A stretch of DNA of 64,000 nucleotides from Heterostelium album PN500. Taxonomy: Eukaryota > Evosea > Eumycetozoa > Acytosteliales > Acytosteliaceae. How positions within the stretch are numbered: the stretch's first letter is position 1; every line of letters begins with the position of its first letter. Location of the stretch: assembly GCF_000004825.1 (NCBI RefSeq), contig NW_008805071.1, forward strand, positions 558,001-622,000. Reading direction: 5' to 3'. Positions 4,499 through 33,207 of the stretch are shown here, piece by piece. The notes under the pieces were generated by a model. It was given only the letters and a program-made list of their open reading frames with translations, was not told the origin of the DNA and made no database searches. Position numbers and translations under genes: made by a program.

Positions 4499-7400
4499 AT
4501 GTTATGTATATATTTATTTATTTATTTATTATTTTGTATTATTTCTTTTCATCAATCTATTGTAATTTCAATATGTACAGGTATGTTGTTTAAAAAGATA
4601 GCTCATTTTTAGTACTCAGTTATTGATTGATTGATTGATTCTTTTTGTGTTGTTTATATAAAAATTTTAAGAAACCGAAAAACCAATATTAGATGACTGG
4701 GGTTTTCAATCGATCGGTAGTGGTTTACCTTCACCGTGGACCGTTAATAGTCCACTTATTTCATTTTGTCGTGACCAGGAGTGTGGATACACCGGTATAT
4801 TGCTCGACGGCTACTACTATGCAAAGTACAATATGAACAGATCGTCACCTCTAGATATGCTGACGCTATCACAGCAATTCAGTGCGGTACCACTGACAGC
4901 ACAGCAACAGCTGACAGAATCGTACATTCTAAGCTTTTTCGTAACTTCCACCAATCTATTCCCGGTCGATGTTGAATATGACTTTAGTATCTACATCGAT
5001 CAAAACGGTGTTACAACTCGAATCAATTCTATCAACAATGAGGAGCACTCTGTCGACGTCACCAAGTACATCGTGGACAGCTCTTCTTACTTCCAACTGG
5101 ATCTTATAGTCATTTTTAGGAATTCTAATCCCAGCAATAAAATTAACAGGAATACCGATAATTTCGCATTGCTGCTGTCTGGTTTGGAGATTAAAAGAAT
5201 ACAGAAAACCAGACTGGCAAGAGATTTCTATGTGGATGCATCTGGTGGATCAGACCGAATAGGAAACGGGACAAAGGAGTCCCCGTTCTCCTCGATTGGA
5301 ATGGCATTGGCTTGGATTCAACCTTTGCATACTATTTATGTGTCGGACGGTGTCTACTGTGGATATAACATGAATAGTAAGATTGTCGATTCAGTGTCGA
5401 TCGTTGGTCAGTCTTCGGGTGGCACCGTGCTCAATGGTCTGGGAAAAATCTACCCTTTCAAGGTGACAGGAACCAATCTAATATTCAAAGTCTCGACACT
5501 CTCGATTGTCTATTGTTACACCAGCAACAGTACTTATGGTGGCGCTATCATTCTTTTGAACGGTGGAAACAACACTGGTGTCTTGGAGAATCTGCTGCTG
5601 TATAATAACGCTGACTTTTCCAATCGTGGTTCTATCACTCTGCGCGAGAATGCTTCACTCAACATCACCGGCTGTCAATTTAGAAACAATTCGAATTCCG
5701 ATTACAACCAGAATCCGACGATCGGTGTTGCCAGTCTTTCCAACAGCCATGTCGTCACCTATTTGAATATCTTTAACAGCGTTTTCAACAACGATAACAA
5801 TTATCTATATGTCGACTTTGCCAGTTCGATTGTGATCGATTCATCGGTGTTTATTGGTAATCACGATGATTTGAATTCGTGTTCCTGTTCCATTTTCAGA
5901 TCGAATCTGGTTATTAGGAACTGCAGTTTTTCGGAATCGTTGTCCGGTCAGATCTGTCTTACCAATTCAACGAGTTATGTTAGCAACTCTTATTTCAAAG
6001 ATAACTATTTCAACTTTTATGCCACTCAGAGTACGCTAGAGGTTCATAACTCTGAGATTCACTTTATGCACTCCAGCCAAGGTGGAGTCATGATGCTTTC
6101 GAAAAACTCGTATGCTCATCTCTACAATTGCAGTGTTTCTTCGACAAGTGTCTACACCTCGCCCAATCTAATGTTCTCAATGTCGCAGTCTACTTTGCTT
6201 GTCAACAGCTCGTTGCTAGTCGGTGGAAAGGGAACCATGTTCAGTACACTACAAGGTGACTTGCAGTTGGTTGATGCCATCATCAGGGATACTCAATGTC
6301 TATTGATATCGGCATCGCAAACCAAAATTAGGCTGTCAAACAGCCAGTTTTTAAATTCCACCTACTTTGACGAAGTTTTCAAATTCAATACTATTCTCGA
6401 GCAGTACAATGGTGCATATGTTTTAATCATCGATTGCCTATTCCAAGATATTTATGGTTACATCAAAGCCGTCAATTCACGATTGATTATTCACAACTCT
6501 AAACTTATCAATTCCGGAAAGTTCTTTGACATTGACAAGTCCACCAGCTTGAATCTGGAGGACTGCCAATTCATATCAAACTTTGGACCGATCTTTGTTT
6601 TGAATGGCCCGAGGGTTCATTTTTTCAATTGTACGTTCCAGTACAACTATGGATCGGAGGGTTCCATTATACAAGGCAGTAATAATTTATTCTTGGAAGC
6701 TGCCAACTGTACCTTTGAAAGCAATATTGCACTATCGCAGGGCGGTATTGCTGTCATCGGTGACCAATCCACTCTAAATTTCCTATTTTGTACATTCCGT
6801 AACAATACCTCTCTTTATAATGGTGGAATTATCTATGCTGGATCGCTCAACACCATCCTATTCTACTTTACCATACTCGATAGCAATACCGCAAAGAATG
6901 GAGGTGGCTCCATTGTTTATTTCATCGAGAAGCTACCGATATTCGGAAACTGTACACTTACCAATAATAATGCATATTTTGGTGGAATCATTGCATCGAA
7001 TCCGACACATCTGCAGCTTGCCAGCGGCGAATTTCCAAGTGTGATTGTTTCAAGGGAAACCATATTTTCCGGTATCATTAGAATTGGTAATAACTTGAAT
7101 CAAATCTATCCAAACCCAAGTTACAATCACCTAAGAGTATACCTCATGGTGAATGGAAATACAATTGCAACCGTACCTTTTGAAGATGGTTATGCCAATT
7201 TCACAAACATAGTTATCTATGGTCAGGTTGGAGGTTTTTCAACAGTCATTTTTTCATGTAACGAAAGTTCTTTGGAACCACTTACCATACCTTACAATGT
7301 AACTATTATGCCTTGTAACCCTGGATACTATCCCATTGATTCATCGACAAAGTGTGCGGAATGTCCACCTGGAAGCTATGGATACAATGGAAATATTTGC

Positions 7401-8768
7401 ATTTCATGTCCACAGAATGCATTATGTGAAGGTGGTGATCAAGTTTCAACGAGACCAGGATATTGGTTTGATGAAAATCAATTTCCAAGAGTGATTTATG
7501 ATTGTGATCAATCATCACATTGCTTGGCAAATAACACGTGTCTTGAACATACATTTGGTGTTCTTTGTTCATCGTGTAACAACACCGAACAATATTATTC
7601 ATGGTTTGGAGGTTGTATCGAATGTACTCAGACCAACAAACTGGTAATTGCTATTGTTATCATTGGAATGATTCTCCTCGTTCTTTGGTCACATAAATCA
7701 GATTCATCATCAGGTCTGATGAATATTGTTGTCTATTTCGCACAAACAATCATGGTACTTTCGAAAGGTGTTAATTTCAGTATTCTTTCACTCCTGAATC
7801 TCCAATTGGAAAGTGGAGGATCATCAATCATTGGATCGATATGTCCAGGACCATTCGATTATTATGAAAGGCATTATATGACATTCCTTGTTTTCCCAGC
7901 AGTAATTTTCATTCTCCTCATTTTCACATTAATCATCACGATTATCAGAAAGTTTAAACCGAATGACCAACCAATATTTCCAAGACAATTTGGATCGTTT
8001 GTCAAGTTATTGATGAATATTTATTCACCAATCAGCACTGCAACATTTACAATATTCTTTTGTCAACAAATTGGAATTGGTAACTCGGTTTTAGTCACAG
8101 ATTCATCGGTTCAATGCTCTGGAAATCAATATCGAACAGCACTCAAAATCAGTTATTCAATGTTGATTGTTGTTCTTGGAATTCCAATGATTATTTTCAT
8201 CTTATTATTCAAGAATCGAAAACACAATAACGATGCATCAATCATTCGAACATATGGAGCGTTCATCTTGAAATACAAAACATCATATTATTATTGGGAT
8301 GTAATATTATTATTCAGAAGATTGGTGATTGTATTGGTATCGATTATGGATCAAGACACACCAATCAGATCATTCCTTTTGATTGGAGTATCACTGATCA
8401 GTGTTCTTCTTCAATTGAAACATTCACCGTTCATCAGTGAAGGTGATAATCAACTTGAATTGGTATCACTGATATTGATATTCATTTCATGTATTTACCT
8501 TGGAAATGAAATTGAATCATATCTTGAAGATTGGATCATCATCGTTTGTTGTATTTCATTTGCCATTTATTTATTATATATTATTTATACACATTATCGA
8601 ATTCCAATTCTCAAAAGAATCAATCATTATCTTTCAATTCTCAGTCGTCGAAGGTTTGGATATGAACAACTGCACAATGAAATGGAAGAAGATCCACAAG
8701 ATGACCACAATCAATTTGAAATTCCAATTTTAAAAAATAAAGTCAATGAAAATGAAGAGATTGATTAA
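4499..8768 (+). CDS. Receptor A: beta-helix, Cys-rich, multi-TM membrane protein
   Basis: Exon 1 (4499-4580) encodes a signal peptide (MLCIYLFIYLLFCIISFHQS). Exon 2 (4672-8768) carries the rest, about 1392 residues. Order: a DDWGF-type N-terminal domain with a Cys pair (SFCRDQECG); a DFYVDASGGSDR...GTKESPFSSI motif near 210, typical of right-handed beta-helix proteins; beta-helix repeats with many NCTF/NNTS rungs to about 905; a Cys-rich module at about 908-1015 resembling GCC2/GCC3-EGF (CNPGYYPI, CPPGSYGY, RPGYWFDENQFP); about nine TM helices from 1018 to 1330; a short acidic cytosolic tail. It has two close paralogues in this window. It converges on the gene at 8846 with 77 bp between stops. 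The fold is inferred from repeats; ligand and function are unknown. A cell-surface sensor or channel-like protein is possible. Confidence 0.85.
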
Positions 8769-8845
8769 TATTAAAAAATAAAATTATAAAATATATTCAG
8801 AATTCGGAGTGGTTGTTCAAAGATTGTTAATTAAAATTATTTAAT

Positions 8846-10378
8846 TTAATGATAACTATGATATTTATGATGATTATGGTGTCTCTTCTTTATGATATAT
8901 ACAATTAATACGAGTAAAAGTATACCGGCTATAGAACCAACGATGATACCTGCGATTGCACCGGGACTAAGTCTACCTTCAGGGGGACAAGACATTTCAG
9001 TGATATCATAGTTACCAGTGAATTTACATCCAGCTCTACCACCGTTTGAACATGAAACCAAACTATCAGTATCGGAGGTGATGTTGTTGATTTCAATATC
9101 AGAGTCATCACAGAAGATAGGGTTGATAGAGTCGTTGATTAGATTATGTGAAAATGTTACTCCTTTAAACGAGTTGAACTCTACGTTGTCGATGTACAAT
9201 ACACTACCGGAACCGTCGGGACCGACAGAGTTACCTGTGAAAGTGGTATTGGTAAGTTTGAGAGTTTGTGCATCGAAGATGTAGATGGCACCACCCGATT
9301 GCAGTGCATAGTTCGATGCGAAAACACAATTGGTGACAAACAATTCACCTTGGTTAAGAGCGATCGCACCACCCAATGCCGATGCATTGTTATTGCTGAT
9401 GAGAGTATCGGCGATGACCAAGGTACTGATCGAGTTGAAAGAGATTGGTGCACTTCCAACGTTGTTGGAAATCACTGAGTTGAGGAGCTGAACAAAGTTT
9501 TGGAACAGCATCATTACACCGCCTCCCATTGGATCTACTACACGCTGGACAGAGTTGTTGGTTAGGGTCATGTTGTTGATAATCACATTTCCATTGTTAC
9601 TCAATTTCAAGATGGAACTTCCTCCGACGTTGGAATCGATGAGAACATTGTTCATTTTAAACGCTCCATTCACTACGTAAATGATACCGTTGTTTCCTTG
9701 ATTGCCAACAATGTTGCTATTGGAAATGTTCACTTGACAGAAGTTAGTGGTATAGAAAACCGATCCGAAAGTACCAGAGTTGTTGGTGAACGTCGAGTTG
9801 GAGAAGGTGATATAGGAATTCAGTGTTGTCTGGAGAGAAACGACACCACCATAGTATGCATTGCAATTGGAGATAACAACATTCTCCAGTAGCAATATGG
9901 TGTTGGAGTAGTTGGTAGTGATATAGATGACACCACCATAGACACCGTGGAATCCCGTACCGTTGACAATGTTTAGGTATTGGAGTGTCAAGACAACGTC
10001 ACCGTGCTTCTGCTGACTATCCATAATACTAAAGAGCAAACCATTCTCTGCCAGATCGATAGTGGCATATGCATTTGGATTACCCTGCACGGTGAGTGTT
10101 ATGTTTACCAAATTGATATTGGTGTTGTTTGGACCGGTGTATGTGTAGTTACCCAAATCCAGCACGATATTAGTTGAGTTGGTGGCACTGAGAGCAACAG
10201 CGATATTAGGACATGCATTATCTGTTGTGTTTCCACATGGCATAGTATATTGAGCGATATTTGGATTCAAAATTAGCAGTGTTTCGGCTTCTACTTGTGA
10301 AAGTACAAGTTGATCACCAAGAAAAACTCCAAATACTAAAAATAGTGAAAATATTAATGAATATTTTAATTTAAACAT
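8846..10378 (-). CDS. Companion protein 1: beta-helix with one C-terminal TM
   Basis: A single-exon gene of 510 residues. The frame opens five codons earlier, but the paralogue at 27237 starts at MFKLKYSLIF, so that Met is chosen. Residues 1-35 are a signal peptide. Residues 40-450 are Asn/Thr-rich beta-helix repeats (NCVFASNYALQSGGAIYI, LTNTTFTGNS and similar). A Cys cluster follows (CDDSD, SCSNGG, AGCKF, MSC). Then comes a GxxxG-rich TM (GAIAGIIVGSIAGILLLVLI) and a His-rich cytosolic tail (KKRHHNHHKYHSYH). It is a type I membrane protein with a beta-helix ectodomain. It converges on receptor A and is about 95% identical by eye to the copy at 27237. Function is unknown. The pairing suggests it works with, or is co-regulated with, the receptor. 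Confidence 0.85.
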   Translation of the reverse strand: MFKLKYSLIFSLFLVFGVFLGDQLVLSQVEAETLLILNPNIAQYTMPCGNTTDNACPNIAVALSATNSTNIVLDLGNYTYTGPNNTNINLVNITLTVQGNPNAYATIDLAENGLLFSIMDSQQKHGDVVLTLQYLNIVNGTGFHGVYGGVIYITTNYSNTILLLENVVISNCNAYYGGVVSLQTTLNSYITFSNSTFTNNSGTFGSVFYTTNFCQVNISNSNIVGNQGNNGIIYVVNGAFKMNNVLIDSNVGGSSILKLSNNGNVIINNMTLTNNSVQRVVDPMGGGVMMLFQNFVQLLNSVISNNVGSAPISFNSISTLVIADTLISNNNASALGGAIALNQGELFVTNCVFASNYALQSGGAIYIFDAQTLKLTNTTFTGNSVGPDGSGSVLYIDNVEFNSFKGVTFSHNLINDSINPIFCDDSDIEINNITSDTDSLVSCSNGGRAGCKFTGNYDITEMSCPPEGRLSPGAIAGIIVGSIAGILLLVLIVYIIKKRHHNHHKYHSYH

Positions 10379-10670
10379 TTTTTTTAAATACAAATAATAA
10401 TGTATGAGTTATTATTTAATATAAATAGATTAACCTTAGTTTAAAAAAAAGGAACTCATTTTTAATATTACAGTGTTGCAGGTGCAACAATGTTGTTGGT
10501 GCCACTTTTAAAAATCTTAAAAATTCTGATATTTCACTAAATATCTAGTGATAGTTTTTTGATTTTTAAAAATTTTAAATTTAGATTCTAACACGTCAGC
10601 ACCGATGATAGGAATCTTGACTTGATTAATAGAGATATGAGAAATTTCATATACTATCATCTTTTATTCA
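10379..10670 (-). promoter_or_regulatory. Companion gene promoter, duplicated
   Basis: This non-coding region corresponds in reverse to about 26917-27236. Shared blocks include GGTGCCACTTTTAAAAATCT-like, AGATATTTAG/CTAAATATCT-like and ATGATAGGAATCTTGACTTG. Conservation in both copies over some 290 bp suggests recent duplication and likely contains the promoter of the companion gene. Confidence 0.55.
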
Positions 10671-10673
10671 AAT

Positions 10674-11004
10674 TAATTTTCGAAAATTTAACAATAGTTT
10701 CATCATCATCACAATGTTCAGGTATGTCAAAATCTAATCATAATATGTGTATAAGTAATAGATATATAATAAAATTAAACTTTTAACTTTTAATTCACCA
10801 TGGGTGACAAAAGATAATAATATATCCAAGATTGAATTTTGTACGGATGATATATGTGGATCAACCGATTATCAACTCTATGGATTCTACTATGCGTTTT
10901 TCCCAATTACCAAAGGACATACCTATGGCTTTATGTAATTATCAAAACAGTTCGACTTGTTAGATTATACTATCGATAACGAAACCAATTACTATCTCGA
11001 TTTC
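10674..11004 (+). pseudogene. 5' scrap of receptor B (left arm copy)
   Basis: Plus-strand DNA matches the start of the receptor gene at 21984-26307: the end of its signal peptide (TIVSSSSQCS), the intron with its GTATGT donor, then the exon-2 stretch giving CTDDICGSTDYQLYGFYYAFF-like residues. It lacks the start codon, most of the signal peptide and the codons just after the intron, and carries an in-frame TAA near 10939. It stops abruptly at 11004, where kelch-gene sequence begins. It is a dead remnant that marks the edge of the duplicated block. Confidence 0.8.
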
Positions 11005-11106
11005 AATCAGATTGACAAGAGATGGTTTCGGCATGATCTATACCAAGATATCCGACAAAGAAAGTTATCTCTATGCAGTACGATGCCTTGAGGTTCGAAG
11101 AGATAC

Positions 11107-11814
11107 TGTTGTCCGTCTAAGGACAATAAGGTAGCCGCCAAGGCAATGCCGGTACCTATCAATCAACATCAATAATAATTACCAGCCAACATATAAGAAA
11201 CAGTCAATTATAATTAATTAAATTAATTAATCAACTAAATAAGTAATAGTTCAAAACAACAGATCAAAATAATAATTAAATTAGAATCTGTTGTTTCTAA
11301 ATTAAGTATTCAACACTCAGCCGCCAAGCTTCTCAATAAATGAATATATTGAGTTTAACGCGACGTTAAAGATTCATTCAATTGATTATTCAATATTCAA
11401 GATATAAAATTAAAGAAAATAAATAAATAATTCACGGTGAAGAAAAAGAATTAAAATAAAGTTAAAAATTAAATTATATAAAGATATTATTAAAAACATT
11501 ATTTTATATTATTATTAATTATCACTTGAATAAGAAATGTCAGATCCAACTGATCAAACAACAACAACCACAACAACCAATAATGCAACAGCACCGACTG
11601 ATACAACAACCACAACAAATGATCTTACAATGAACGATCTCGAAAGCAATAATGATAATGATTCAATCCCATCAACCTCTACTTTGTTTCCTGATATCGT
11701 CCCTCCCGTCACACGCCCAGACTCACTCCCGTCGGATGTATTCCAAGCAACCCTGATCGCATCCAAGACTCCGATCTCTTCCTCTATCGTACCTGGTCAA
11801 CAAGAGAACAAACA
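11107..11814 (+). mobile_element. Solo-LTR-like insertion (708 bp) in a kelch scrap
   Basis: The insert begins TGTTGTC and ends ACAAACA, so it has TG...CA ends with a short imperfect inverted repeat. It is flanked by GATAC on both sides (11102-11106 and 11815-11819), like a 5-bp target-site duplication. The flanking host sequence lines up with the intact kelch gene when the insert is left out. The last 280 bp contain an open frame starting at 11537 that runs to the element end. This recalls LTR elements whose gag frame begins in the LTR, such as Ty1. The family is not recognised and no second LTR or internal region is seen here. The age cannot be judged beyond the target duplication still being intact. 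Confidence 0.5.
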
Positions 11815-11845
11815 GATACATTCAAACACTTTAAATATTCATTAG
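11537..11845 (+). other. Thr-rich open frame inside the LTR-like insert
   Basis: A 102-codon frame starts MSDPTDQTTTTTT and contains LFPDIVPPVTRPDS. It lies almost wholly within the LTR-like insertion and ends in kelch-derived DNA just past it. It may be the beginning of an element-encoded protein or a chance frame. It should not be taken as a host gene. Confidence 0.35.
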
Positions 11846-11905
11846 AAAATGACTGTTGGGAAAATTTTATTGAAACCACTAACAATTATGGAAATATTTT
11901 ATTAT

Positions 11906-12171
11906 CTTGGTTTAACCAAAAAATTATAAGTTATTCAAGGTGAACGATATTAAGTTCGTGTTTTAAATATTGAGTATTCAACCATATACTGGTTGAAATG
12001 GTCGATTTTTTTGGGGTTTGTATCCTAGGTAGTTTAGGTAGAGCAGAAGAGTACCTTGTCATGAGAAAAATTTAATTCTGTTGATTTTTATAGGATTAGA
12101 AAAATATGCTTTTAATTCAAACTAGTCAGACAAATGAGTCCCAAATAAAGGGTTTGGGCGTTTTAGCTGTA
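11906..12171. other. Spacer without recognised features
   Basis: AT-rich DNA between the kelch scrap and the hairpin upstream of the intact kelch gene. It probably includes that gene's promoter. No gene is seen. Confidence 0.4.
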
Positions 12172-12277: not shown

Positions 12278-14185
12278 ATGGAGAACATATGCAAAGTTCA
12301 TAATGATTCATTTGAATTCATTTGTTATCCATGTCATAGATTAATGTGTAAACGATGTCTCAGGACTCATTTAAAGCAATTCAATGATCATATCGATTAT
12401 TGGGATAATATTCAAGATATTAGAGAATCATTCTATAAAATATTATATAATAACAGTAATACAAGTAGTAAAGAAGATATTAATGTAGATGATAACTATG
12501 ATCAGTCTGGAGTATACGAGATAGGAGAAGAGGAGGAGGTGCTATTAGAATACAATGATGGTGAAGCCGATAATGATCATGATCAAACAGAGTTTATTGA
12601 AGAGGAGGAAGAAGAAGTTGGGGATCAACAAGTTGTAGAAGAAGCTGAAGAAGAGAACCAAGACAATGAAGAATGTGCGGATTACGACATAAACTTATGT
12701 TTTATCGAAAGAACCATCAACTACCTATGGAACTCGATTAAGAAATCTACTTTTCTATTTAAATCAATGGATACATCAGAGAAACTAATAACCGAGCACT
12801 TTAAGATATTACATGATTTCTTAATCAATGAAGAACACAAATTGAAATCACCTATAACCAAAGATAAAAATATCACACTTGACGATATCGATCAAAAGAC
12901 TACAGAACTCAATCAAATAGTTAGAATAATCAAATTAAATAATAGCATATATAATAATCAAAAGAGTGGTGATGGAGAAGAAGAAAAAGAAGAGAGTAGT
13001 GATGGCGATGATGACGACCAAAAGTATTGTAATGATGATACAACTTTACCAACAGCTCTTGAAATCATCGATCAATCGGAAACATTCCAACAATATGCTC
13101 AATATTGTGTCAACAACGAGTATATATGTCCAGATATCGATATTGAACATCAAAATAAACAGTTTCATAACAATTCAGATTTCATCATTTTGGATACTAT
13201 TGCAAAGTACAATAATGAATTCAATACAGCTACATACGCTGTTCAACAAACAGTCGATGAATACTTTATCACTGTTGAACCAACAGAACTTGAAACTCTT
13301 CAACAAGCTCTCAAAAATACAATCTCTATTAGTACATCTCAGCAACCAATAGCCAATCCATCACCAATCTATTATTATTTATCTACACACAAAGAATCAA
13401 TTTCATTATATAATCATTCAGTTGGTACATTAGAATCGATAAAGGATACTAAAAACTATAGATTTGAAGGAACATCGAGATCTACAGTGGCAGTTGGTAA
13501 CCATATATACATATTTGGTGGAGTCGATGGTCAAAAGTATTGTAGATTCTCACTCGATAGTATATCAATTGATTTAATCGAAGACATCGATCCCGCTGTC
13601 ATTTGTGGAAAGGATAGACTGGCAGTTTACGATGGTGGATATTATATCTATATACTCGGTGGTGTGAAGCGTATCATTCGGTTTAATTTAAAAAAACTAA
13701 AGTTTGAGAATTTCATGGATACTCATACCGTCGATATCTGTCAAGCATTCTTTGTAAAGGAAAAGCTAATCATCTTTGGTTCACCAAATGACCGTCAGAA
13801 TCGTCTTAATCGATATGGTATCGATGTCACAACTGGTAGTCATTTTCGTCTGGATTGGGATTTGGGTGTGAACATTACATCTGTGTGTTACGATGGCTAT
13901 AAATCACTGTATTTCGTTAGTGGTCACAGATTCTATCGATACAATACAGAAACAAACCAAAAACAACAACTCAAAGAGTTTGCTTCATTCAGACTGACCA
14001 AAGATGGTTTCGGCATGATCTATAGCAAGATATCTGACAAAGAAAGCTATGTCTATGCAGTACGATGCCTTGAAATAAGAAGCAATATATTCAGACATTA
14101 TAGATATTCAATAGAAAATGACTGCTGGGAGATTTTTATTGACACTACAAACCACGGTGCGTCAGCAGTAATAATAATAAAATAA
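12278..14185 (+). CDS. B-box zinc finger and kelch-like protein
   Basis: A single exon of 635 residues from the first ATG in frame. The N-terminus is a B-box zinc finger, with Cys/His at spaced positions in CKVHNDSFEFICYPCHRL and MCKRCLRTHLKQFNDH (residues 5-38). A long acidic, low-complexity and probably coiled middle follows (residues about 85-260, with EEE and DDD runs). The C-terminal 250 residues carry kelch-like blades (GNHIYIFGGVDGQK, GYYIYILGGVKR). Proteins of this layout are expanded in dictyostelids; they are presumed adaptor or ubiquitin-ligase-related scaffolds, but a RING finger is absent. Truncated copies of its 3' end lie just upstream, so the gene has been locally duplicated. 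Confidence 0.8.
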   Translation: MENICKVHNDSFEFICYPCHRLMCKRCLRTHLKQFNDHIDYWDNIQDIRESFYKILYNNSNTSSKEDINVDDNYDQSGVYEIGEEEEVLLEYNDGEADNDHDQTEFIEEEEEEVGDQQVVEEAEEENQDNEECADYDINLCFIERTINYLWNSIKKSTFLFKSMDTSEKLITEHFKILHDFLINEEHKLKSPITKDKNITLDDIDQKTTELNQIVRIIKLNNSIYNNQKSGDGEEEKEESSDGDDDDQKYCNDDTTLPTALEIIDQSETFQQYAQYCVNNEYICPDIDIEHQNKQFHNNSDFIILDTIAKYNNEFNTATYAVQQTVDEYFITVEPTELETLQQALKNTISISTSQQPIANPSPIYYYLSTHKESISLYNHSVGTLESIKDTKNYRFEGTSRSTVAVGNHIYIFGGVDGQKYCRFSLDSISIDLIEDIDPAVICGKDRLAVYDGGYYIYILGGVKRIIRFNLKKLKFENFMDTHTVDICQAFFVKEKLIIFGSPNDRQNRLNRYGIDVTTGSHFRLDWDLGVNITSVCYDGYKSLYFVSGHRFYRYNTETNQKQQLKEFASFRLTKDGFGMIYSKISDKESYVYAVRCLEIRSNIFRHYRYSIENDCWEIFIDTTNHGASAVIIIK

Positions 14186-14382
14186 TAAATAGGGTAACTT
14201 ACATTTCGAAAGCCAAAACTCAAAATAATCATTTGTTTAAAATAAAACCATAATTTTTAAATTTTACAAAATATCTGTGTTGTTTACAATCATTAAATGG
14301 TTTTGTATTCTTTTTCTTTATGTTTTTAATTATTTTAATAAGCTTTGTTAATAATAATAATAATTTAAATTATCTCAATCCA

Positions 14383-14699
14383 ATGTCTCAAGATCATCTA
14401 GCGGAACAAGGATATACTAAACATACAGATGACAATGGAAAAGATCTTTATCTTTTGAGTCAAGAAGATTATTAAGTAAAGAAATCATCTACCTTAAAGA
14501 ACTTTACCGACTGGCCAGAAGGTGAAAAAGAAATTGATAGTTGGTTAGGATCACTTCTGTAAAAGCTGTTTATATTCGTACAAAAAATGTAGGAACCAAA
14601 GTATTCCAATGTGATGAAGCTGAAAAGATTGCTAAACAAATCAATCATCAAATTCAACTCGCCCCAAACAACAACAACCAAAAAAGTATATTAATTTAA
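14383..14699 (+). pseudogene. Decayed copy of the gene at 16067
   Basis: It starts MSQDHLAEQGYTKHTDDNGK, parallel to MSQKQVPTQGYNKYTDDTGK of the intact gene. It is interrupted by an early stop (about 14473), lacks the middle third, and resumes with AVYIRTKNVGTKVF-like and AEKIAKQINHQIQL-like stretches. It is a host-gene pseudogene from tandem duplication. Confidence 0.85.
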
Positions 14700-16066
14700 T
14701 AGGAAAAAAGTTCACTTTCTATTTTAAAACTGTGGAAATGAATAAAATATTAAAATCCATATTTGATCTCATGTACCTTAGCTCATTTCATTCTATTTTG
14801 AAATTTTTTCTTCATCTTATACACCATCAATCATTAAATAATTTATATTTTTTACAAAAAAGTTATAATTAGTTTTAATTTATTTTTAAGATCTCTTAAT
14901 TAAAATAATTTTTAATATCTCAAGAAATACACCCAAAGATATTATAAAATACATATTATGTTGGAAAAGGTGTATATTTTAAGAAATAACGAGTAAAAAA
15001 ATCTACCAAAGTGAAAGAGAGATAATCACACAGATTCAGTGAAAACAAGACTTTGTGATCAGGCGAACTGGTAAAGAACTAAGCAATTAGTCTGTTATTT
15101 TCCAGCTTGAATTGGTTCCATCCAAACATTACACTGGACAGCTGGCTATAACGAATGTATGATAGCAGCAGTAAGGTGGGTGAAGTCGACTGTAGTTCGA
15201 ATAGGACCATCTAATTTGATGCACGAGTGCCTCCAATTAAAAGTCTGTAGCTATAGTACTTGTGGTATTTATGTTTGATAAGAGAAACTCGCGAAACAAC
15301 ATACTTGTAAGAAACTAACGTGAAACATTCAGAATTATTTTTTTTTTTTTTTTTTATAATAACTAAAGTGGTATACATGTTTTATTAAAAGTTGTATTAA
15401 AAGGATGGATTTACCATCAAGTTTTTTTCGTAGTCTATTTTTTTTTCTTTTTAGTTGTTGGTTGATTTAATTAATTAGTTGGCAGGTTGGGAAGAGAGTT
15501 AATTTCATTTACTTGATTAGTTGGCTGGTGTTGGAGTGAACATTCAGAATTATTACAATTAATTTTCCGCAAGCGGTGTAATTTTTGAATTCAAAAATAA
15601 ATAAATGGACAGATCCTGAGGTTTCATTGACAGTAGAAGTTTTAATTGCGGAAGAGGACCTTGTTAGGGTGAAAAAAAAAACAGTTTTTTTAAAAATAGT
15701 GAATATTAAAATATTGATTTTTATGGGATGTGTAAATAAACATCTATTTTTGGTTGTTGTTTTTACATTTGCTTTATAAAAAATATAATATTTTATTTGA
15801 AAAAAGTAAACTAATAATGATGATATATTATAATCCTATTTTAATTAAAAATATAAAAGAAGTTTTTGGCATTCACAGTTTTGTTTTGATCACCAAGATA
15901 TTAAAAAATGGATCAAGATTGTTTATCAAATTTTTAATTTTCCAAAATATCTGATGTTAAAAGTTGGAATGGATAATCAAAAATCCTTTTTATCTTTTCA
16001 TTTTGATTATTGTAATATCCTATTGGTTTAATAGTTATTAATTTAAATAAAAAACAATAAGTTTAA
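14700..16066. other. Gene-poor spacer with a GC-richer island
   Basis: No convincing gene. Positions 15000-15330 have a markedly higher GC content than their surroundings but no long frame, and could be a relic of an unidentified element. The phrase GTGAAACATTCAGAATTATT at 15321 recurs nearly unchanged at about 15537. Positions 15830-15960 resemble 16807-16910. Confidence 0.45.
15830..15960 (+). repeat. Fragment duplicated at 16807-16910
   Basis: The blocks share GCATTCACAGTTTTG, CCAAGATATTAAAAAATGGA and TTGTTTAT in the same order. One frame gives FDHQDIKKWIKIV here and VDDQDIKKWIRLF in the second copy, suggesting pieces of a lost gene. The intact gene at 16067 sits between them. Confidence 0.6.
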
Positions 16067-16561
16067 ATGTCTCAAAAGCAAGTACCCACTCAAGGATATA
16101 ATAAATATACAGACGACACTGGAAAAGATGTTTATGTTAAGACAAATAATTCAACGAATCATGAATTTACATCTTACATAAAAAACTTTAAAGAATGGTC
16201 GGAAGGTGAAAAGGAAATAGATAGATGGATAGGAACACTTGGGTTTGATCAAAGCATCATGAGATTAACCAATGTTCATATCAGGTTTGACAGATTAGAT
16301 ATTCATAATGTAAAGTTCATAAACAACACCGAGTCTACTCTTACAAATACCTATAGCAATACAACCAAACAAATACCATTGTCGGAAATCATTGAAGTTA
16401 AGGCAGAACGTGTTCTTTTCATTTTTACAAAAGCTGTTTATATTCGTACAAAGAACGTAGGAACCAAAGTATTCAAAATCAATTCACTATCACATAGTGC
16501 TGAAAAGATTGCTGAACAAATCAATCATCAAATTCAACTCTCGCGGAACAACAATCAATAA
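16067..16561 (+). CDS. Unknown small soluble protein, possibly PH-like
   Basis: A single exon of 164 residues with no signal peptide or TM. The C-terminal half has a run of predicted beta strands (KQIPLSEIIEVKAERVLFIF, KAVYIRTKNVGTKVFKI) followed by an amphipathic helix (AEKIAEQINHQIQL). This order resembles a PH or GRAM-type fold, but only weakly. The N-terminal part is charged (EWSEGEKEIDRWIGTLGF). No family is recognised. It is the intact member of a local duplication whose decayed sister lies at 14383. Confidence 0.7.
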   Translation: MSQKQVPTQGYNKYTDDTGKDVYVKTNNSTNHEFTSYIKNFKEWSEGEKEIDRWIGTLGFDQSIMRLTNVHIRFDRLDIHNVKFINNTESTLTNTYSNTTKQIPLSEIIEVKAERVLFIFTKAVYIRTKNVGTKVFKINSLSHSAEKIAEQINHQIQLSRNNNQ

Positions 16562-21983: not shown

Positions 21984-24900
21984 TTAAATTTCAGTATCAT
22001 TTTCAATCTCTTCATCCACCACATGCGGTGATGAGTTATACTTGATTTCTTTTGAAAGTAAATCGATTGAATAATCATCTTCATTCGGTAGTTGTTGATA
22101 TCCAAACCTTCCACGACTGAGAATTGAAAGATAATGATTGATTCGTTTGAGAATTGAAATTCGATAATGTGTATAAATAATATATAATAAATAAATGGCA
22201 AATGAAATACAACAAATGATGATGATCCAATCTTCAAGATATGATTCAATTTCATTTCCAAGGTAAATACATGAAATGAATATCAATATCAGTGATACCA
22301 ATTCAAGTTGATTATCACCTTCACTGATGAACGGTGAATGTTTCAACTGAAGAAGGACACTGATCAGTGATACTCCAATCAAAAGGAATGATCTGATTGG
22401 TGTGTCTTGATCCATAATCGACACCAATACAATCACCAATCTTCTGAATAATAATATTACATCCCAATAATAATATGATGTTTTGTATTTCAAGATGAAT
22501 GCTCCATATGTTCGAATGATTGATGCATCGTTATTGTGTTTTCGATTCTTGAATAATAAGATGAAAATAATCATTGGAATTCCAAGAACAACAACCAACA
22601 TTGAATAACTGACTTTGAGTGCTGTTCGATATTGATTTCCAGAGCATTGAACTGATGAATCTGTGACTAAAACCGAGTTACCAATTCCAATTTGTTGACA
22701 AAAGAATATTGTAAATGTTGCAGTGCTGATTGGTGAATACATATTCATCAATAACTTGACAAACGATCCAAATTGTCTTGGGAATATTGGTTGGTCATTC
22801 GGTTTAAACTTTCTGATAATTGTGATGATTAATGTGAAAATGAGGAGAATGAAAATAATTGCTGGGAAAGCAAGGAACGTCGTATAATGTCTCTGGTAAT
22901 AATCGAATGGTCCTGGACATATCGATCCAATGATTGATGATCCTCCACTTTCCAATTGGAGATTGAGAAGTGAAAGAATACTGAAATTAACATCTTTCGA
23001 AAGTACCATGATTGTTTGTGCGAAATAGACAACAATATTCATCAGACCTGATGATGAATCTGATTTATGTGACCAAAGAACGAGGAGAATCATTCCAATG
23101 ATAACAATAGCAATAACAAGTTTGTTGGTATGAGTACATTCGATACAACCTCCAAACCATGAATAATATTGTTCGGTGTTGTTACACGATGAACAAAGAA
23201 CACCAAATGTATGTTCAAGACAAGTGCTATTTGCCAAGCAATGTGATGATTGTTCACAATCGTAAATCACTCTTGGATATTGATTTTCATCAAACCAATA
23301 CCCAGGTCTCGTCGAAACCTGTTGACCGCCTTCACAGAATGCATTTTGTGGACATGAAATACATTTGTTTCCATCATATCCATAACTTCCAGGTGGACAA
23401 ACTGAGCAAAGTGTTGATGATTCTATAGGATAGTATCCAGGATTGCATGGTAAAATAGTCACCTTATATGGTAGTGTCAATGGTTTAAGTGATCTGTAGC
23501 TACTAACAAATGATATTGTAGAGGAACTTCCAACTTGTCCAACGATTTCCACCGATTCAAAATTGACACTTCCATTGATAAAAGGCAAAGAAGCAATGGT
23601 ATTACCACCAACCTGCAGATAAACCAAGACACTCGATGGTTGTGATGGATAGGTTTGATTTAGTATATCACATGATTTAATGGTACCAGTGAATTGGGTG
23701 CGATTGGAAGTGACAATCTCTGGGAATACTCCATCGCTAAGTATCAGACGATTCACAAGAGATGCACTGACATTACCAAATACTGCACCATTATTCTCTA
23801 TTGTACAATTAATAAATATCGGTTGAATGTAGAAGAAATAAGAAATTCCACCTTGCAACGCAGTGTTATTTGTTAGAGTACAATCTTTAAATACCACGTT
23901 GTTCTGACCGGTGGTATAAACGACTCCTCCTGGACCAAATGAAGTGTTATTTTTGAAAGTACAATTAAAGAAAGAGATATCGCTGATGTGACTATCTAAA
24001 TTACCAATGGTTCCGTCAAGACCCTGGTTGTTTAAAAACACCGTGTCCGATACTACTGTGTTTACTTGAGCGTTCGAAAAATACAACAATGAATAAACAT
24101 CGTTGTTACGAAACTTTGAACCAGTAATATTGAGAGATCCAACTGATGTAAAGTAAAAAACTATTTGATTGTTAAAGTTCAAAAACGATGAGTTGTGAAT
24201 CTCGACATTGGAGTAGCCTTGGAAAAAGAGGTTGGAGTTTCGCATATTCCTTAGAGTGGTGTTTATCAACCTGAGATTAGAGTTTTCGAATTTCAGCTTA
24301 GCGGCGATATCCTCAAAGATACAGTCTTTGAATATAATATACTTTGGTGGTATGTTTTGCATTTGGAACATAAATATATACGATTGAGTTTTGATGTTTC
24401 TAAAGAGTGTGTTCTCGAATTGTACGTTGGAACTGAATGCATAGGTAATTACCATATCATTTTCTGCGAATAGAGACCACCTAACTGAGAGATCTCCATT
24501 GACTATATTGAATACCGTTGATCCAGTGGTAGCAGATATCTGAGAGTTATCAACAACCATTGTTGAACTAACCACTTGAATAAGAGTCACCACTGAATTT
24601 CCATAGGATTTATACACCAAACAGTTCCGCAAAAAAAAGTTTGAATGTTCATTCAAGCTGATAATGGAAGGAAAGTTTGGTGTGACATAACCGATTGTAC
24701 AATTACTAACGGTAGCATTGCTTTTGAAAACATCGATATGTATGAATTCATTTTCATTGAACTGACTGTCCTCTATCTCCACACTCGATTTTACCATACA
24801 AAAGATAGTTCGTTTATGGTTATTGAATTCACAGTCTTTAAAGAGTGATTCCGTAAGGTAGAATGAAAAGAGACACAGCGTTGCGCTAAATCTCGGGGCA

Positions 24901-26916: not shown

Positions 26917-27236
26917 AAATAAAAGATGATAGGATATGAAATTTCTCATTTCTCTATTAATCAAGTCAAGATTCCTATCATCGGTGCTGGCGTGTTACTA
27001 ATTCCAAAAGATTTTAACACACACCCACTTTGAAAATAAATGGGACCATAATCTAGTAAGTAAAAATCAAAAAAACTATCACCTAGATATTTATTGAAAT
27101 ATCCAAATTTTTAAGATTTTTAAAGGTGGCACCAACAACATTGTTAAATTAAAAATGAGTTACTTTTTTTAAACTAAGGTTAATCTATTTATATTAAATA
27201 ATAACTCATACATTATTATTTGTATTTAAAAAAAAA

Positions 27237-28769
27237 ATGTTTAAATTAAAATATTCATTAATATTTTCACTATTTTTAGTATTTGGAGTTTTTCTTGGTG
27301 ATCAACTTGTACTTTCACAAGTAGAAGCCGAAACACTGCTAATTTTGAATCCAAATATCGTTCAATATACTATGCCATGTGGAAACACAACAGATAATGC
27401 ATGTCCTAATATCGCTGTTGCTCTCAGTGCCACCAACTCAACTAATATCGTGCTGGATTTGGGTAACTACACATACACCGGTCCAAACAACACCAATATC
27501 AATTTGGTAAACATAACACTCACCGTGCAGGGTAATCCAAATGCATATGCCACTGTCGATCTGGCAGAGAATGGTTTGCTCTTTAGTATTATGGATAGTC
27601 AGCAGAAGCACGGTGACGTTGTCTTGACACTCCAATACCTAAACATTGTCAACGGTACGGGATTCCACGGTGTCTACGGTGGTGTCATCTATATCACTAC
27701 CAACTACTCCAACACCATATTGCTACTGGAGAATGTTGTTGTCTCCAATTGCAATGCATACTATGGTGGTGTCGTTTCTCTCCAGACAACACTGAACTCC
27801 TATATCACCTTCTCCAACTCGACGTTCACCAACAACTCTGGTACTTTCGGATCGGTTTTCTATACCACCAACTTCTGTCAAGTGAACATTTCCAATAGCA
27901 ACATCGTTGGCAATCAAGGAAACAACGGTATCATTTACTTAGTGAATGGAACGATTACAATGAGCAATGTTCTCATCGATTCCAACGTCGGAGGAAGTTC
28001 CATCTTGAAATTTAGTAACAATGGAAATGTGATTATCAACAACATGACCCTAACCAACAACTCTGTCCAGCGTGTAGTAGATCCAATGGGAGGCGGTGTA
28101 ATGATGCTGTTCCAAAACTTTGTTCAGCTCTACAACTCAGTGATTTCCAACAACGTTGGAAGTGCACCAATCTCTTTCAACTCGATCGGTACCTTTATTA
28201 TCGCCGGTACTCTCATCAACAATAACAATGCATCGGCATTTGGTGGTGCGATCGCTCTTAACCACGGTGCATTGTTTGTCACCAACTGTGTTTTCGCATC
28301 GAACTATGCACTGCAATCGGGTGGTGCCATCTACATCTTCGATGCACAAACTCTCAAACTTACCAATACCACTTTCACAGGTAACTCTGTTGGTCCCGAC
28401 GGTTCCGGTAGTGTACTGTACATCGACAACGTAGCGTCCAACTCGTTCAACGGAGTAACATTTTCACATAATCTAATCAAAGACTCTATCAACCCTATCT
28501 TCTGTGATGACTCTGATATTGTAATCAACAACATCACCTCCGATACTGATAGTTTGGTTTCATGTTCAAACGGTGGTAGAGCTGGATGTAAATTCACTGG
28601 TAACTACGATATCACTGAAATGTCTTGTCCCTCCGAAGGTAGACTTAGTCCCGGTGCAATCGCAGGTATCATCGTTGGTTCTATAGCCGGTATACTTTTA
28701 CTCGTATTAGTTGTATATATCATAAAGAAGAGACACCATAATCATCATAAATATCATAGTTATCATTAA
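27237..28769 (+). CDS. Companion protein 2: beta-helix with one C-terminal TM
   Basis: A 510-residue single-exon paralogue of the gene at 8846, with the same signal peptide, Cys cluster, GAIAGIIVGSIAGILLLVLV membrane segment and His-rich tail. By eye only some 25 residues differ. They are unevenly spread: most fall in the middle beta-helix (for example GAFKMNN against GTITMSN, and ISTLVIADTLISNNNASALG against IGTFIIAGTLINNNNASAFG). It converges on receptor C with 80 bp between stop codons and diverges from receptor B, so here it sits between two receptors. Likely a cell-surface protein; function unknown. Confidence 0.85.
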   Translation: MFKLKYSLIFSLFLVFGVFLGDQLVLSQVEAETLLILNPNIVQYTMPCGNTTDNACPNIAVALSATNSTNIVLDLGNYTYTGPNNTNINLVNITLTVQGNPNAYATVDLAENGLLFSIMDSQQKHGDVVLTLQYLNIVNGTGFHGVYGGVIYITTNYSNTILLLENVVVSNCNAYYGGVVSLQTTLNSYITFSNSTFTNNSGTFGSVFYTTNFCQVNISNSNIVGNQGNNGIIYLVNGTITMSNVLIDSNVGGSSILKFSNNGNVIINNMTLTNNSVQRVVDPMGGGVMMLFQNFVQLYNSVISNNVGSAPISFNSIGTFIIAGTLINNNNASAFGGAIALNHGALFVTNCVFASNYALQSGGAIYIFDAQTLKLTNTTFTGNSVGPDGSGSVLYIDNVASNSFNGVTFSHNLIKDSINPIFCDDSDIVINNITSDTDSLVSCSNGGRAGCKFTGNYDITEMSCPSEGRLSPGAIAGIIVGSIAGILLLVLVVYIIKKRHHNHHKYHSYH

Positions 28770-28849
28770 ATTAAATAATTTTAATTAACAATCTTTGAAC
28801 AACCACTCCGAATTCTGAAAATATTTTATAGTTTTATTTTTAATATTAA

Positions 28850-31800
28850 TCAATCAATCTCTTCATTTTCATTGACTTTATTTTTTAAAATTGGAATTTC
28901 AAATTGATTGTGGTCATCTTGTGGATCTTCTTCCATTTCATTGTGTAGTTGTTCATATCCAAACCTTCCACGACTGAGAATTGAAAGATAATGATTGATT
29001 CGTTTGAGAATTGAAATTCGATAATGTGTATAAATAATATATAATAAATAAATGGCAAATGAAATACAACAAACGATGATGATCCAATCTTCAAGATATG
29101 ATTCAATTTCATTTCCAAGGTAAATACATGAAATGAATATCAATATCAGTGATACCAATTCAAGTTGATTATCACCTTCACTGATGAACGGTGAATGTTT
29201 CAATTGAAGAAGGACACTGATCAGAGATACTCCAATCAAAAGGAATGATCTGATTGGTGTGTCTTGATCCATAATCGACACCAATACAATCACCAATCTT
29301 CTGAATAATAATATTACATCCCAATAATAATATGATGTTTTGTATTTCAAGATGAATGCTCCATATGTTCGAATGATTGATGCATCGTTATTGTGTTTTC
29401 GATTCTTGAATAATAAGATGAAAATAATCATTGGAATTCCAAGAACAACAACCAACATTGAATAACTGACTTTGAGTGCTGTTCGATATTGATTTCCAGA
29501 GCATTGAACTGATGAATCTGTGACTAAAACCGAGTTACCAATTCCAATTTGTTGACAAAAGAATATTGTAAATGTTGCAGTGCTGATTGGTGAATAAATA
29601 TTCATCAATAACTTGACAAATGATCCAAATTGTCTTGGAAATATTGGTTGGTCATTCGGTTTAAACTTTCTGATAATCGTGATGATTATTGTGAAAATGA
29701 GGAGAATGAAAATAATTGCTGGGAAAACAAGGAACGTCGTATAATGTCTCTGGTAATAATCGAATGGTCCTGGACATATCGATCCAATGATTGATGATCC
29801 TCCACTTTCCAATTGGAGATTCAGGAGTGAAAGAATACTGAAATTAACACCTTTCGAAAGTACCATGATTGTTTGTGCGAAATAGACAACAATATTCATC
29901 AGACCTGATGATGAATCTGATTTATGTGACCAAAGAACGAGGAGAATCATTCCAATGATAACAATAGCAATTACCAGTTTGTTGGTCTGAGTACATTCGA
30001 TACAACTTCCAAACCATGAATAATATTGTTCGGTGTTGTTACACGATGAACAAAGAACACCAAATGTATGTTCAAGACACGTGTTATTCTCCAAGCAATG
30101 TGATGATTGATCACAATCATAAATCACTCTTGGAAATTGATTTTCATCAAACCAATATCCAGGTCTCGTTGAAACTTGATCACCACCTTGACAAAGTGCA
30201 TTCTGTGGACATGAAATACATTTGTTTCCGTCATACCCATAACTTCCAGATGGACATATCGAACATTGCGTAGAGGAGTCAATTGGATAGTAACCTGAAT
30301 TACATGGTAGCACAGATACATTATATGGTAACTTCATTGGTAGTATAAGATTTGAGCTACTGGTAAAGACAACCGTAGAATTAGTACCAACCACTCCTAT
30401 GATATCGATTGAATCAAAGTAGGCACTACCATTTATAAAGGGAGAAGAAGCAATCGTGGTACCACCAACCTGTAGATAAACAGTGTGTTTAATATGTTGA
30501 TAGGTACTAATCTGATTCAGAATATCTCCAATCTGAATGGACCCAGTGAATTGTGTAACATTGGAAAGAACTACTTCTGGGAAGCTACCGTTTGTCAGAA
30601 TAAGCTGGTTTGGTGTAGATGCCATGATATCACCGAGATTTGCATGATTCCCACTGAATTCACATGCATTGAAAATTGGTGGTTCCTTTATGAAAAATGC
30701 GATTCCACCTTGGTTGGCGCTGTTATTGTAGAACTTACAGTTGTTGAATGTAATATCGACTTTTCCAACCGAGTAAACGATACCACCATTTACATTAACG
30801 GAATTGTTTGTGAAAATACAATTATAAAACTCTACTCTATTGTCTGTACCACCGACATTGACCACTCCACCGGTATAACCAAAGTTATTTAAAAACAAGG
30901 TGTTGCTAGCCACCAAAAATAGCTTGGTGCGAACCGATATGATAGAATTGGAAATTAGGTTTAGGAATTTCGATTCGCCAATCTTTATGAATCCAGAAGA
31001 TCGAAATACAAATATTTTACCGGTGGAAATTCGATCGAACGTAGAGCTTTGTATTAACACTTCAGAGTAGCCGTCAAAGTAGAATCCGGTGAACGCCATA
31101 TCCTGCATCGTCGTGTTGGCAATGTAGAGATTCGAGTTTACGAATCGAAACACTCCATACACCATATGGAATGTACAATCTAGGAATTTAACCATTCTCG
31201 TCCGTTTGTTCATCATGTTGAATGAAAATAAATCCGATACATCCAAATCGGTAAAATTGCGCGTGGTCACCTGGTGAAACACTACATTGGAGCCGGATGC
31301 ATAGATTATCTTTGTACTGATATTGTACATGGTTGAATCTACGACCAGTAGATCGCCATCTATTATCTGGTAGAGTAGTGATTCTCTGCTGGCTGAAAGC
31401 AGAGTGTTGTTGATCACCAGCCACGAACCTATCGCTTGAAACAAAATGATCGGAGTGTTTTGTGTTGCAGCTGGATATACTATTGACCGTTGGAATTTAA
31501 CTGTCGAATATTCATTTAAATAGACAAGTGAATCGTTGATATTGCTCCAGAACTGAATGGAACAATTGTCGAAAGTAACACTACTGTTGAGCGCGTTGAG
31601 CATCTGGTATCCAACCTCTAGCATCTCAGTGTTGACAATGTTGGCACTGGAGTGAATCAAACAGAGCAAACCATTTGCCGATTTGTTGAAATGACTGTTA
31701 CTGATAACGAGATCGGTTAGCGATGTGGAAATGGCGCACCTATTAACCAGTAGATTCCTCTCGTAGAAGCGAGAGTAGTCTACCACGATTCGCTTGGCAA

Positions 31801-33207
31801 TGGCAGAGTTTATATAGTATTGTTCGCGGAATTCGCTGTCGTAAACATAGAGTTTAACTTCTTTCGAGTTGATGTTGATCGCAGGATTATTGGTGGAAAC
31901 GATCGATTGAGAATAGCGGAATCGACAACCGGTGATGTTTACTGATGCACTATCGGTCACCGCTATCGTTCCTCTATTGGAAAAGTCGGTATTGTTATAC
32001 ATATATACATTGTGGAGAGTTGCGTTGTTGGCGTTGTTCACGTTTAGAACGGCGCCACCGTCGGACATACTACTGGAGTAGGCATTGATAAATGTTAGAT
32101 TCAACAAAAGCAGTTCACTCGCTTCCGACGTCAGGAAATGCAGTGGTTGTATACTCTGTTGACCGTTTATAACTGTGTTGTCCGCCGATTGACCGATGAT
32201 CGATATCGATGAATCCACAACGCCAGCGGCATGATATCCACAGTAGTTTCCATCGGCCAAGTAGATAGTAAAGGTAGTCTGTATCCATGCCAGTGCCATT
32301 GCAATCGATGAGAATGGCAATTGCTTAGTTCCGTAGCCCGTCCTATCAGAACCCCTAACCACATCCACATATAAATCCAATGGTTGTTTTACTTTTGGTT
32401 CTCTTCTCAAGATAATGTTTGACAGTAGAATACCGTTTCTTGAGAACCTATTATTACTGCCAATGTCACTAATATCTCCACTACTTTGATTGTTTTCAAC
32501 GTTGTTACTACCAGATGAACTGTAGGTAAGTATGAATGAAAGTCTGTGGATTAACGGTGGCATGTTAACATAGTCGGTGACGTCGATCTTGTGTTGCTGT
32601 TGGTAAATGGTGTTGCTGAGAACCGCCACTGTATTCTCGTCGATATACACCTCAAGTTGGAATTTGATCGATCCCGTAATGAAACTAGTCGACGAAGCAA
32701 AGAAATAGAGTATATACGATAGTTGTTCATCGTTTTTGATGGGAGGTGCTGTGAAATTCTGTTGAATCGATGTTGTCGATGGTGGTGATGCACCACTCGC
32801 TATCGATTCATTCATGCTGAAAAAGGCATAGTAGAAACCATCGAGTCGGTAGTCTGGCGATCCACATTGATCATCCAAACAGAATTTGATTGGCGATTGA
32901 TCAGTGTCGTTCACCACCCATCTCGACAACAGACTAGCATTACCACCAGCTCCGATCAATTCGAAACCCCAATCATCTATAATAGGTTTTTCTGCAGAAT
33001 CTATAGACACAACATAACAATTTGAATTACTAGTAATTAGTAATTAAATTACTTAAATAAACTTTCGATCTCATATTGAATTGAAAACATACCTGTACAT
33101 TGTGCATATACTATTGAATGATTCGATAGTAAGACTCTACAAATTAAATATTGAATAATAATACAATAGATGATTACATTAATGATTCTATAGGTATTGG
33201 TGATCAT
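28850..33207 (-). CDS. Receptor C: beta-helix, Cys-rich, multi-TM membrane protein
   Basis: Exon 1 (33207-33093) encodes a hydrophobic leader (IINVIIYCIIIQYLICRVLL); exon 2 (33000-28850) the remainder; about 1421 residues. Layout: DDWGFELIGAG domain with the Cys pair FCLDDQCGSPDYRLDGFYYA, DLYVDVVRGSDRTGYGTKQL near 250, beta-helix, Cys-rich module from about 938 (CNSGYYPIDSSTQC), about nine TMs, and a tail ending LKNKVNENEEID identical to receptor A. From the Cys-rich module onward A and C differ at few positions, while the first 900 residues share only the framework. It is the right-arm equivalent of receptor A by position and 3' flank. Confidence 0.85.

Follow-up and report, generated by a model that had tools for sequence, protein, structure and literature searches.

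Cysteine repeat modular proteins (CRMPs) are found in apicomplexans and ciliates, and the accessible parts of two papers describe 9 predicted transmembrane (TM) helices for them in Toxoplasma and Plasmodium, five in Tetrahymena, action with single-TM partners, and a proposed role as contact sensors ahead of exocytosis (PMC9815656, PMC9670195). The same portion of PMC9815656 also mentions Dictyostelium discoideum homologues, Q86I19 among them, that have a similar 9-TM part. The tgrB/tgrC (tgrBC) loci, as far as the available text of PMC12324515 goes, comprise linked surface-protein pairs with inversions, partial copies, and recombination inside genes. IPT/TIG-domain proteins are numerous in dictyostelids (55, 76, and 110 in three species), and tgrB1 occurs only in group 4 and tgrC1 only in D. 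discoideum, according to the excerpts of PMC4931340 at hand. Here, a 64,000-nt window of Heterostelium album PN500 (NW_008805071.1, positions 558,001-622,000; all coordinates below are window positions) was analyzed, in which three genes for polytopic receptors (A, B, and C) lie together with two genes for single-TM companion proteins (c1 and c2). A block made up of the membrane half of C, its companion, and an early part of B is present as a second, inverted copy, which forms the 3' half and the downstream flank of A. By architecture the CRMPs appear to be the closest known system, and tgrBC would be closest for locus dynamics only.

All five genes were found to be intact by spliced or open-frame translation, with the receptor splice sites assigned by eye:

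4499-8768, forward strand: receptor A, exon 1 at 4499-4580 and exon 2 at 4672-8768; 1392 amino acids, with an uninterrupted spliced reading frame up to the stop; the membrane half starts at about 7287.
10378-8846, reverse strand: companion 1 (c1), 510 amino acids, with signal peptide, beta-helix, one TM helix, and short His-rich tail, as identified with Pfam and hydropathy.
26307-21984, reverse strand: receptor B, exon 1 at 26307-26196 and exon 2 at 26098-21984; 1408 amino acids, Beta_helix at 49.6 bits, C-terminal tail unlike that of A and C.
27237-28769, forward strand: companion 2 (c2), 510 amino acids, Beta_helix at 30.0 bits, 25 residues unlike c1.
33207-28850, reverse strand: receptor C, exon 1 at 33207-33093 and exon 2 at 33000-28850; 1421 amino acids, Beta_helix at 23.0 and 25.2 bits.

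Each receptor gene has a short exon 1 that stops just past the signal peptide and a long exon 2, and the predicted order of the protein is signal peptide, beta-sandwich, right-handed beta-helix, Cys-rich linker, 7-10 TM segments, and tail. Receptor A and c1 are convergent with a gap of 77 bp, and c2 and receptor C are convergent with a gap of 80 bp. Receptor B lies head to head with c2, the two being transcribed divergently out of a common upstream region.

Comparison of the window with itself at the DNA level identified a main inverted match, 7288-10668 against 30330-26918, with 94.7% identity over 3432 columns; a 3.4-kb repeat at this identity is far beyond chance. It is continued by two shorter inverted matches, 10663-10795 against 26254-26124 and 10790-11004 against 26038-25824, both at about 95%. 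The features concerned are the following:

7288-10668, forward strand: left arm of the inverted repeat, containing the Cys-rich/TM half of A, companion 1, and the companion upstream region.
26918-30330, reverse strand: right arm of the inverted repeat, which pairs with the left arm at 94.7%.
10663-11004, forward strand: B stump, a truncated and decayed 5' piece of a second receptor B, with 95% DNA identity.
11002-11883, forward strand: two fragments resembling a B-box/kelch gene, the first of which is joined to the B stump.

The arms begin inside A and C at the Cys-rich linker, and the A ectodomain falls outside the repeat; its 2.8 kb of DNA gave a single match to C, of 148 columns at 69.6% (E cut-off 1e-8). 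By part, identity between the arms is 1420/1482 in the receptor 3' half, 72/77 in the convergent gap, 1496/1533 in the companion, 245/262 aligned positions in the companion upstream region, and 328/340 in the B stump, dropping to 36/87 past 11004. The stump consists of parts of exon 1 and of the intron together with early exon 2 and has no B start codon. Relative to the right arm, the left arm is short of 669 bp (the companion/B upstream region and the B start) and of 91 bp (the end of the B intron and the first bases of exon 2), with smaller gaps close by of 48 bp in the left arm and 17 bp in the right. The kelch-like fragments match the neighboring B-box/kelch gene (12278-14185, with a Kelch_6 match in Pfam) at 11002-11091 against 13984-14073 (91% over 90 bp) and at 11816-11883 against 14085-14152 (82%). 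Both the stump and its kelch join are present on the left side only. The copied block is a receptor membrane half, a companion with its upstream region, and an early piece of B.

Two levels of divergence were found within a single receptor gene. Over the 321 columns of the TM domain, 312 (A/B), 315 (A/C), and 316 (B/C) are identical (97-98%), and over the whole membrane half including linker and tail B is 91% and C 96% identical to A, whereas the helix core of the ectodomains is identical at only 98/400 (A/B), 122/408 (A/C), and 126/412 (B/C) columns (24-31%). Synonymous differences per site are saturated in the ectodomains (0.74-0.75); in the membrane halves the synonymous difference (pS) is 0.055 for A/C, 0.062 for B/C, and 0.088 for A/B. 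Among four-fold sites at shared amino acids, those that differ number 90/138 in the ectodomain and 8/156 in the membrane half for A/C, 74/126 and 15/155 for A/B, and 95/147 and 11/159 for B/C (chi-square P < 1e-17 in all three pairs). The best change points, at codon columns 990 (A/B), 1003 (A/C), and 990 (B/C), lie early in the Cys-rich linker, and the difference steps there from 0.47-0.51 to 0.02-0.04 in all three pairs. Third-position GC content is 0.27-0.29 in the membrane halves (7287-8768, 21984-23474, and 28850-30331), 0.34-0.46 in the ectodomains, 0.43-0.44 in the companions, and 0.28-0.64 in eight other open reading frames (ORFs) of the window; the receptor halves thus differ in composition too. 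The C-terminal tail is identical at 53/55 residues between A and C, and that of B matches these two at 27 and 29 of 46. The ectodomain of A is about equally distant from those of C and B, all being saturated. Because selection on the protein cannot cause a low synonymous difference in the membrane halves against saturated ectodomains, copying between genes is indicated: judged from these sequences, the ectodomains are old and the membrane halves must have been homogenized by copying between genes.

The first-pass annotation had described 4499-10378 as reappearing inverted as 27237-33207, with matching convergent gaps and companion promoters and with a third receptor beside companion 2. The gaps and upstream regions do match, B does stand beside c2, and gene order and convergence are alike on the two sides, but the DNA repeat starts only at 7288 in A and 30330 in C. 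Duplication of the receptor-companion pair as a unit, which had also been claimed, fails, as the A ectodomain is outside the copied block and as far from C as from B; duplicated and diverged surface genes are real, but the copied unit is membrane half, companion, and B stump. Beyond that description, the repeat passes the companion to 11004 as the decayed B stump, and B also carries the common membrane half.

The explanation that we favor, at slightly less than an even chance, is a rearranging locus that encodes a small family of polytopic surface receptors, probably with 9 TM segments, and in which a shared membrane half is maintained by gene conversion, inverted copying gave A its companion, and the receptors have a role in contact signaling. 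The locus would have started with three receptors with old ectodomains, and gene conversion would have held their membrane halves alike. A break in the A membrane half may then have been repaired from that of C, after which copying would have run on through the companion into B and been end-joined beside a kelch-gene fragment. A would in this way have gained a companion of its own, a dead B stump would have been left behind, and the left arm would be the derived arm. Such repair copying would explain the in-frame start of the repeat within a homologous receptor stretch, its end inside B, and the debris on one side only. Since the membrane half, companion, and B stump were copied and the A ectodomain is equally far from C and B, A most likely acquired its companion. 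As the membrane halves of A and C are not clearly closest to each other and that of B is homogenized as well, at least one further event would be needed. When the 73 one-against-two sites were tested for clustering, P was 0.27 by longest run and 0.014 by run count; with three sequences such sites count just the changes unique to one gene, and the test was given little weight.

A beta-helix fold of the receptor ectodomain is supported by Pfam (in B) and by the predicted structure of the B ectodomain. The Pfam cut-off for Beta_helix (25.9 bits) is exceeded in B, c1 (33.9 bits), and c2, and C is slightly under it; receptor A gave no Beta_helix match at E up to 1 but nonetheless aligns with B and C. 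The beta-helix ectodomains proposed at first pass for receptors and companions alike are therefore upheld for B, c1, and c2, with C just short and A without a match. The B ectodomain model has a mean predicted local distance difference test score (pLDDT) of 62; in residues 411-720, 31/31 ten-residue blocks have means of 70-94, and the Cys-rich end is below 50. A Foldseek search of this model against the PDB returned 1121 matches at E up to 10, of which 13 reach E 0.001 or better. Among the matches listed, the top ones are right-handed beta-helix proteins; GH87 glucanases, PL6 alginate lyases, lacto-N-biosidases, pertactin, phage tailspikes, and the adhesin PfbA are included, as are cellulose-synthase BcsB chains, a chondroitin-binding module, CBM51, MAM domains, and the EphA3 ligand-binding domain. 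Many of the viral fold matches listed are nameless; among those with names are right-handed beta-helix, tailspike, and pectin-lyase-like proteins. In a comparison with PDB sequences, the ectodomain gave a single weak match, to an asparagine-tRNA ligase fragment (E 0.0068). GGxx-type motifs, which may be akin to chlamydial Pmp repeats, number 4, 1, and 3 in A, B, and C (shuffled expectation 0.2-0.3) and 5 in each companion (about 0.3 by shuffling).

These folds bear on the possibility, which we hold to be real though on the unlikely side, that the receptors serve prey or substrate detection, with beta-helix and lectin-like ectodomains binding bacterial or matrix glycans and a small repertoire broadening the range. 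Amoebae eat bacteria, and the top fold matches among those listed are polysaccharide-acting beta-helix enzymes, accompanied by the tailspikes, adhesins, BcsB chains, and carbohydrate-binding modules; the beta-helix matches are generic, however, and the fold does not give the type of ligand.

Hydropathy analysis of A, B, and C yielded 7, 9, or 10 TM segments per receptor at thresholds of 1.5, 1.2, and 1.0, respectively. With nine segments, of which the two weaker were placed by hand for the charge count, Lys and Arg make up 18-19 of 124 residues in inside loops and tail and 5 of 107 in outside loops; with seven, the basic residues of receptor C are 15/155 inside and 8/105 outside. Nine segments are tentatively favored over seven because the charge bias is stronger. 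No Pfam family scored above its cut-off in the membrane domain. The best Pfam matches of the Cys-rich linker, all under cut-off, were TNFR_ELAPOR1 (E 0.0003), DUF7631 (E 0.003), and DUF7630 (E 0.006), and its weak PDB matches were squash trypsin inhibitors (E 0.018), ELAPOR1 (E 0.046), and Ephrin type-B receptor 2 (E 0.18). The tail contains YEQL in A and C and YQQL in B, which presumably fits the adaptor protein (AP)-binding YxxPhi motif. No relatives of the membrane half were found among 70 pattern matches in viral contigs and 49 in prokaryotic genomes, the collections being prokaryotic and viral, without amoeba genomes.

Less probable is a membrane half that works as a channel or transporter like those of the fungal TRP-like family (PF06011; Flc/Pkd2), under a mechanosensory ectodomain. 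PF06011 matches 3/3 membrane halves (best E 0.17), and the match is collinear over 237 residues (residues 199-435 of member 1, E 0.21), but it is weak, at 10.8 bits for member 1 far under the curated cut-off of 28.5, and the three halves are near-identical, so the matches are not independent. Adhesion G protein-coupled receptors (GPCRs) likewise carry a large adhesive ectodomain on a polytopic domain, but neither a GPCR nor a GAIN match was found in Pfam, and nine TM segments are preferred to their seven. Membership in a named GPCR family was ruled out because none of the three membrane halves matched a Pfam GPCR family at E up to 10, the TM count itself being compatible with 7.

As described at first pass, the locus encodes linked surface proteins, a polytopic receptor and a single-TM companion, which hydropathy and the intact frames support. 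The likeness to CRMPs, within the available text on that family, extends to a large, poorly conserved ectodomain, a Cys-rich stretch (ephrin-receptor/EGF-like in CRMPs and perhaps here) beside a polytopic core, single-TM partners (here a candidate one, encoded by the linked gene), and parallel beta-helix repeats among the domains given for the family. The H. album receptors differ in having a beta-sandwich and beta-helix where the same text gives Kringle/MAR domains for CRMPs, the companion has a beta-helix where the CRMP partners are given as thrombospondin-type, and the H. album paralogues share a homogenized core in one rearranging locus. The membrane halves gave no match to a CRMP-named Pfam family at E up to 10. 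The abbreviation list of an amoebozoan GPCR survey contains PbH1, the parallel beta-helix (PMC10445921), so a beta-helix on some polytopic amoebozoan protein has, to judge from that list, probably been noted already, and relatives of the H. album receptors may be catalogued in the survey. Among the matches listed from literature searches, no paper title names the receptor or companion family. The earlier designation as an unnamed family is thus supported by the Pfam result for the membrane domain and tempered by the CRMP-like architecture and by PbH1 in the part of the survey available.

The c1 and c2 proteins differ at 25/510 residues (95% identical), and 20 of these lie in residues 235-429. 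The single TM helix has three overlapping GxxxG motifs and resembles the syndecan-2 TM segment (E 0.0032). Between the companions the difference per site is 0.031 for synonymous and 0.022 for nonsynonymous changes (ratio 0.70), and the ratio for the A/C TM domain is 0.19; four Fisher tests gave P 0.048 (uncorrected) for companion versus TM domain, P 0.32 and 0.39 for the companion rates, and P 0.0003 for the TM rates. Because the ratio of the companions does not depart from neutrality (P 0.32), the substitutions point to weak constraint rather than positive selection. Profile comparison of the companion with the receptor ectodomain gave a probability of 7.6% and an E of 0.0046 over 68 columns. 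No companion relatives were found among 33 pattern matches in viral contigs, a collection without amoeba genomes.

The companions would be central to a possible second allorecognition system, in which receptors and companions of another family would be matched, polymorphic self-markers like TgrB1/TgrC1, an idea that we consider improbable. A linked surface pair, inverted duplication, gene fragments, and within-gene recombination are all known from tgrBC, in the available text of PMC12324515, and the concentration of 20 of 25 companion differences in one region would suit it, but companion change is no faster than neutral, and no IPT/TIG domain is present. Tgr proteins have IPT/TIG repeats, and none were found by Pfam in A, B, C, c1, or c2 (E up to 1) or in the three ectodomains (E up to 0.1); without TIG repeats, the receptors and companions are not Tgr proteins, and membership in that family was ruled out. 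The 'diverging gene pairs' of PMC12324515, read as divergent transcription, also differ from the arrangement here, in which each companion converges with one receptor and c2 in addition diverges from B, and the accessible portion of that paper describes no polytopic Tgr receptor.

Collapsed or mis-joined repeats are a very improbable source of the structure; such repeats assemble poorly, but the arms are 2-7% apart in every compared part and have their own intact frames, and the left arm has its own gaps. Least probable, and in effect ruled out despite the like gene order and orientation of the two arms, is recent duplication of the whole receptor-companion unit with later divergence of the ectodomains under strong diversifying selection, since four-fold sites are saturated in the ectodomains and not in the membrane halves, which protein selection cannot cause, and the distance between the A and C ectodomains is about that of either to B.

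In the contact-signaling explanation favored here, a ligand on a surface would be bound by the variable beta-sandwich/beta-helix region, possibly together with the single-pass beta-helix companion. The conserved membrane core would then relay the signal of contact into the cell, in the way proposed for CRMPs, and the YxxL tail would serve the cycling of the receptor. Modular change would swap the ligand and keep the same output. Recognition loci show reshuffling of this sort, and, judged from architecture, a recognition or sensing role is plausible, as the first-pass annotation had proposed, and contact sensing or adhesion is likely. Several observations weigh against this explanation. The N-terminal sandwich (residues 31-160) has block pLDDT values of 47-75, all Foldseek matches listed have low TM-scores (by target length, none above 0.41), and the carbohydrate-binding, MAM, and Eph-type matches were assigned to the N-terminal region from their size, Foldseek having given no matched range, so that this placement is provisional. 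The TM count shifts with the threshold, the two extra segments, at 1.31-1.46, do not outscore the top ectodomain stretches of A and C, which reach 1.44 and 1.47 (1.29 in B), and the structure prediction for the membrane half has low confidence (pLDDT 36). The membrane halves do not support A and C as clear sisters (pS 0.055 against 0.062 for B-C), and it could be that the right arm gained the 669 and 91 bp rather than the left arm having lost them. The companion nonsynonymous rate is indistinguishable from neutral, and receptor and companion may be linked in function, gene linkage being the basis for this. A further-reaching version, a non-Tgr amoeba recognition locus in which 9-TM contact sensors swap ectodomains over a gene-converted common transducer and partner genes pass between receptors by break-induced copying, making new pairs in one step, is speculative and doubtful.

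The window has a GC content of 33.7%, introns of about 90-100 bp, and Asn/Gln-rich stretches, all in keeping with a dictyostelid. Ten further ORFs were scanned against Pfam; two had no match, and eight had ordinary matches (ALG3, acyl-CoA dehydrogenase, PIN ribonuclease, palmitoyl thioesterase, Sec23/24, two DOCK-type, and sugar transporter). A broken reverse-transcriptase remnant lies in several frames at 33483-34108 on the reverse strand, with RVT_1 matches on 3/4 pieces searched, one above cut-off, and near it is a 62-bp perfect inverted repeat (33479-33540 and 33804-33743). The only tRNA gene found in the window, tRNA-Glu at 34490-34560 on the forward strand, is about 400 bp from the remnant, an arrangement presumably reminiscent of tRNA-targeted retroelements. 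Another inverted repeat, 62075-62634 and 63441-64000 (563 columns, 85%), overlaps a DUF4419-domain gene (61660-62805) and extends to the window end. Diverged direct repeats of 70-90% identity occupy 14252-16900 (14252-14556/15929-16240, 14561-14798/16429-16664, and 15833-15926/16809-16900) and overlap a 164-amino-acid ORF with no Pfam match at E up to 0.001, and a direct-repeat cluster of 72-82% identity is located at 46257-47766.

The locus offers a readable snapshot of change in paired surface receptors, in which an old, diverse outer half sits on a transducer half that recombination keeps uniform, and in which a single event probably captured a partner gene. If the receptors are relatives of CRMPs, a contact-sensing family of parasites would be open to study, including its ancestral role, in a free-living amoeba. 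If they vary among isolates, the locus would be a second recognition locus alongside tgrBC.

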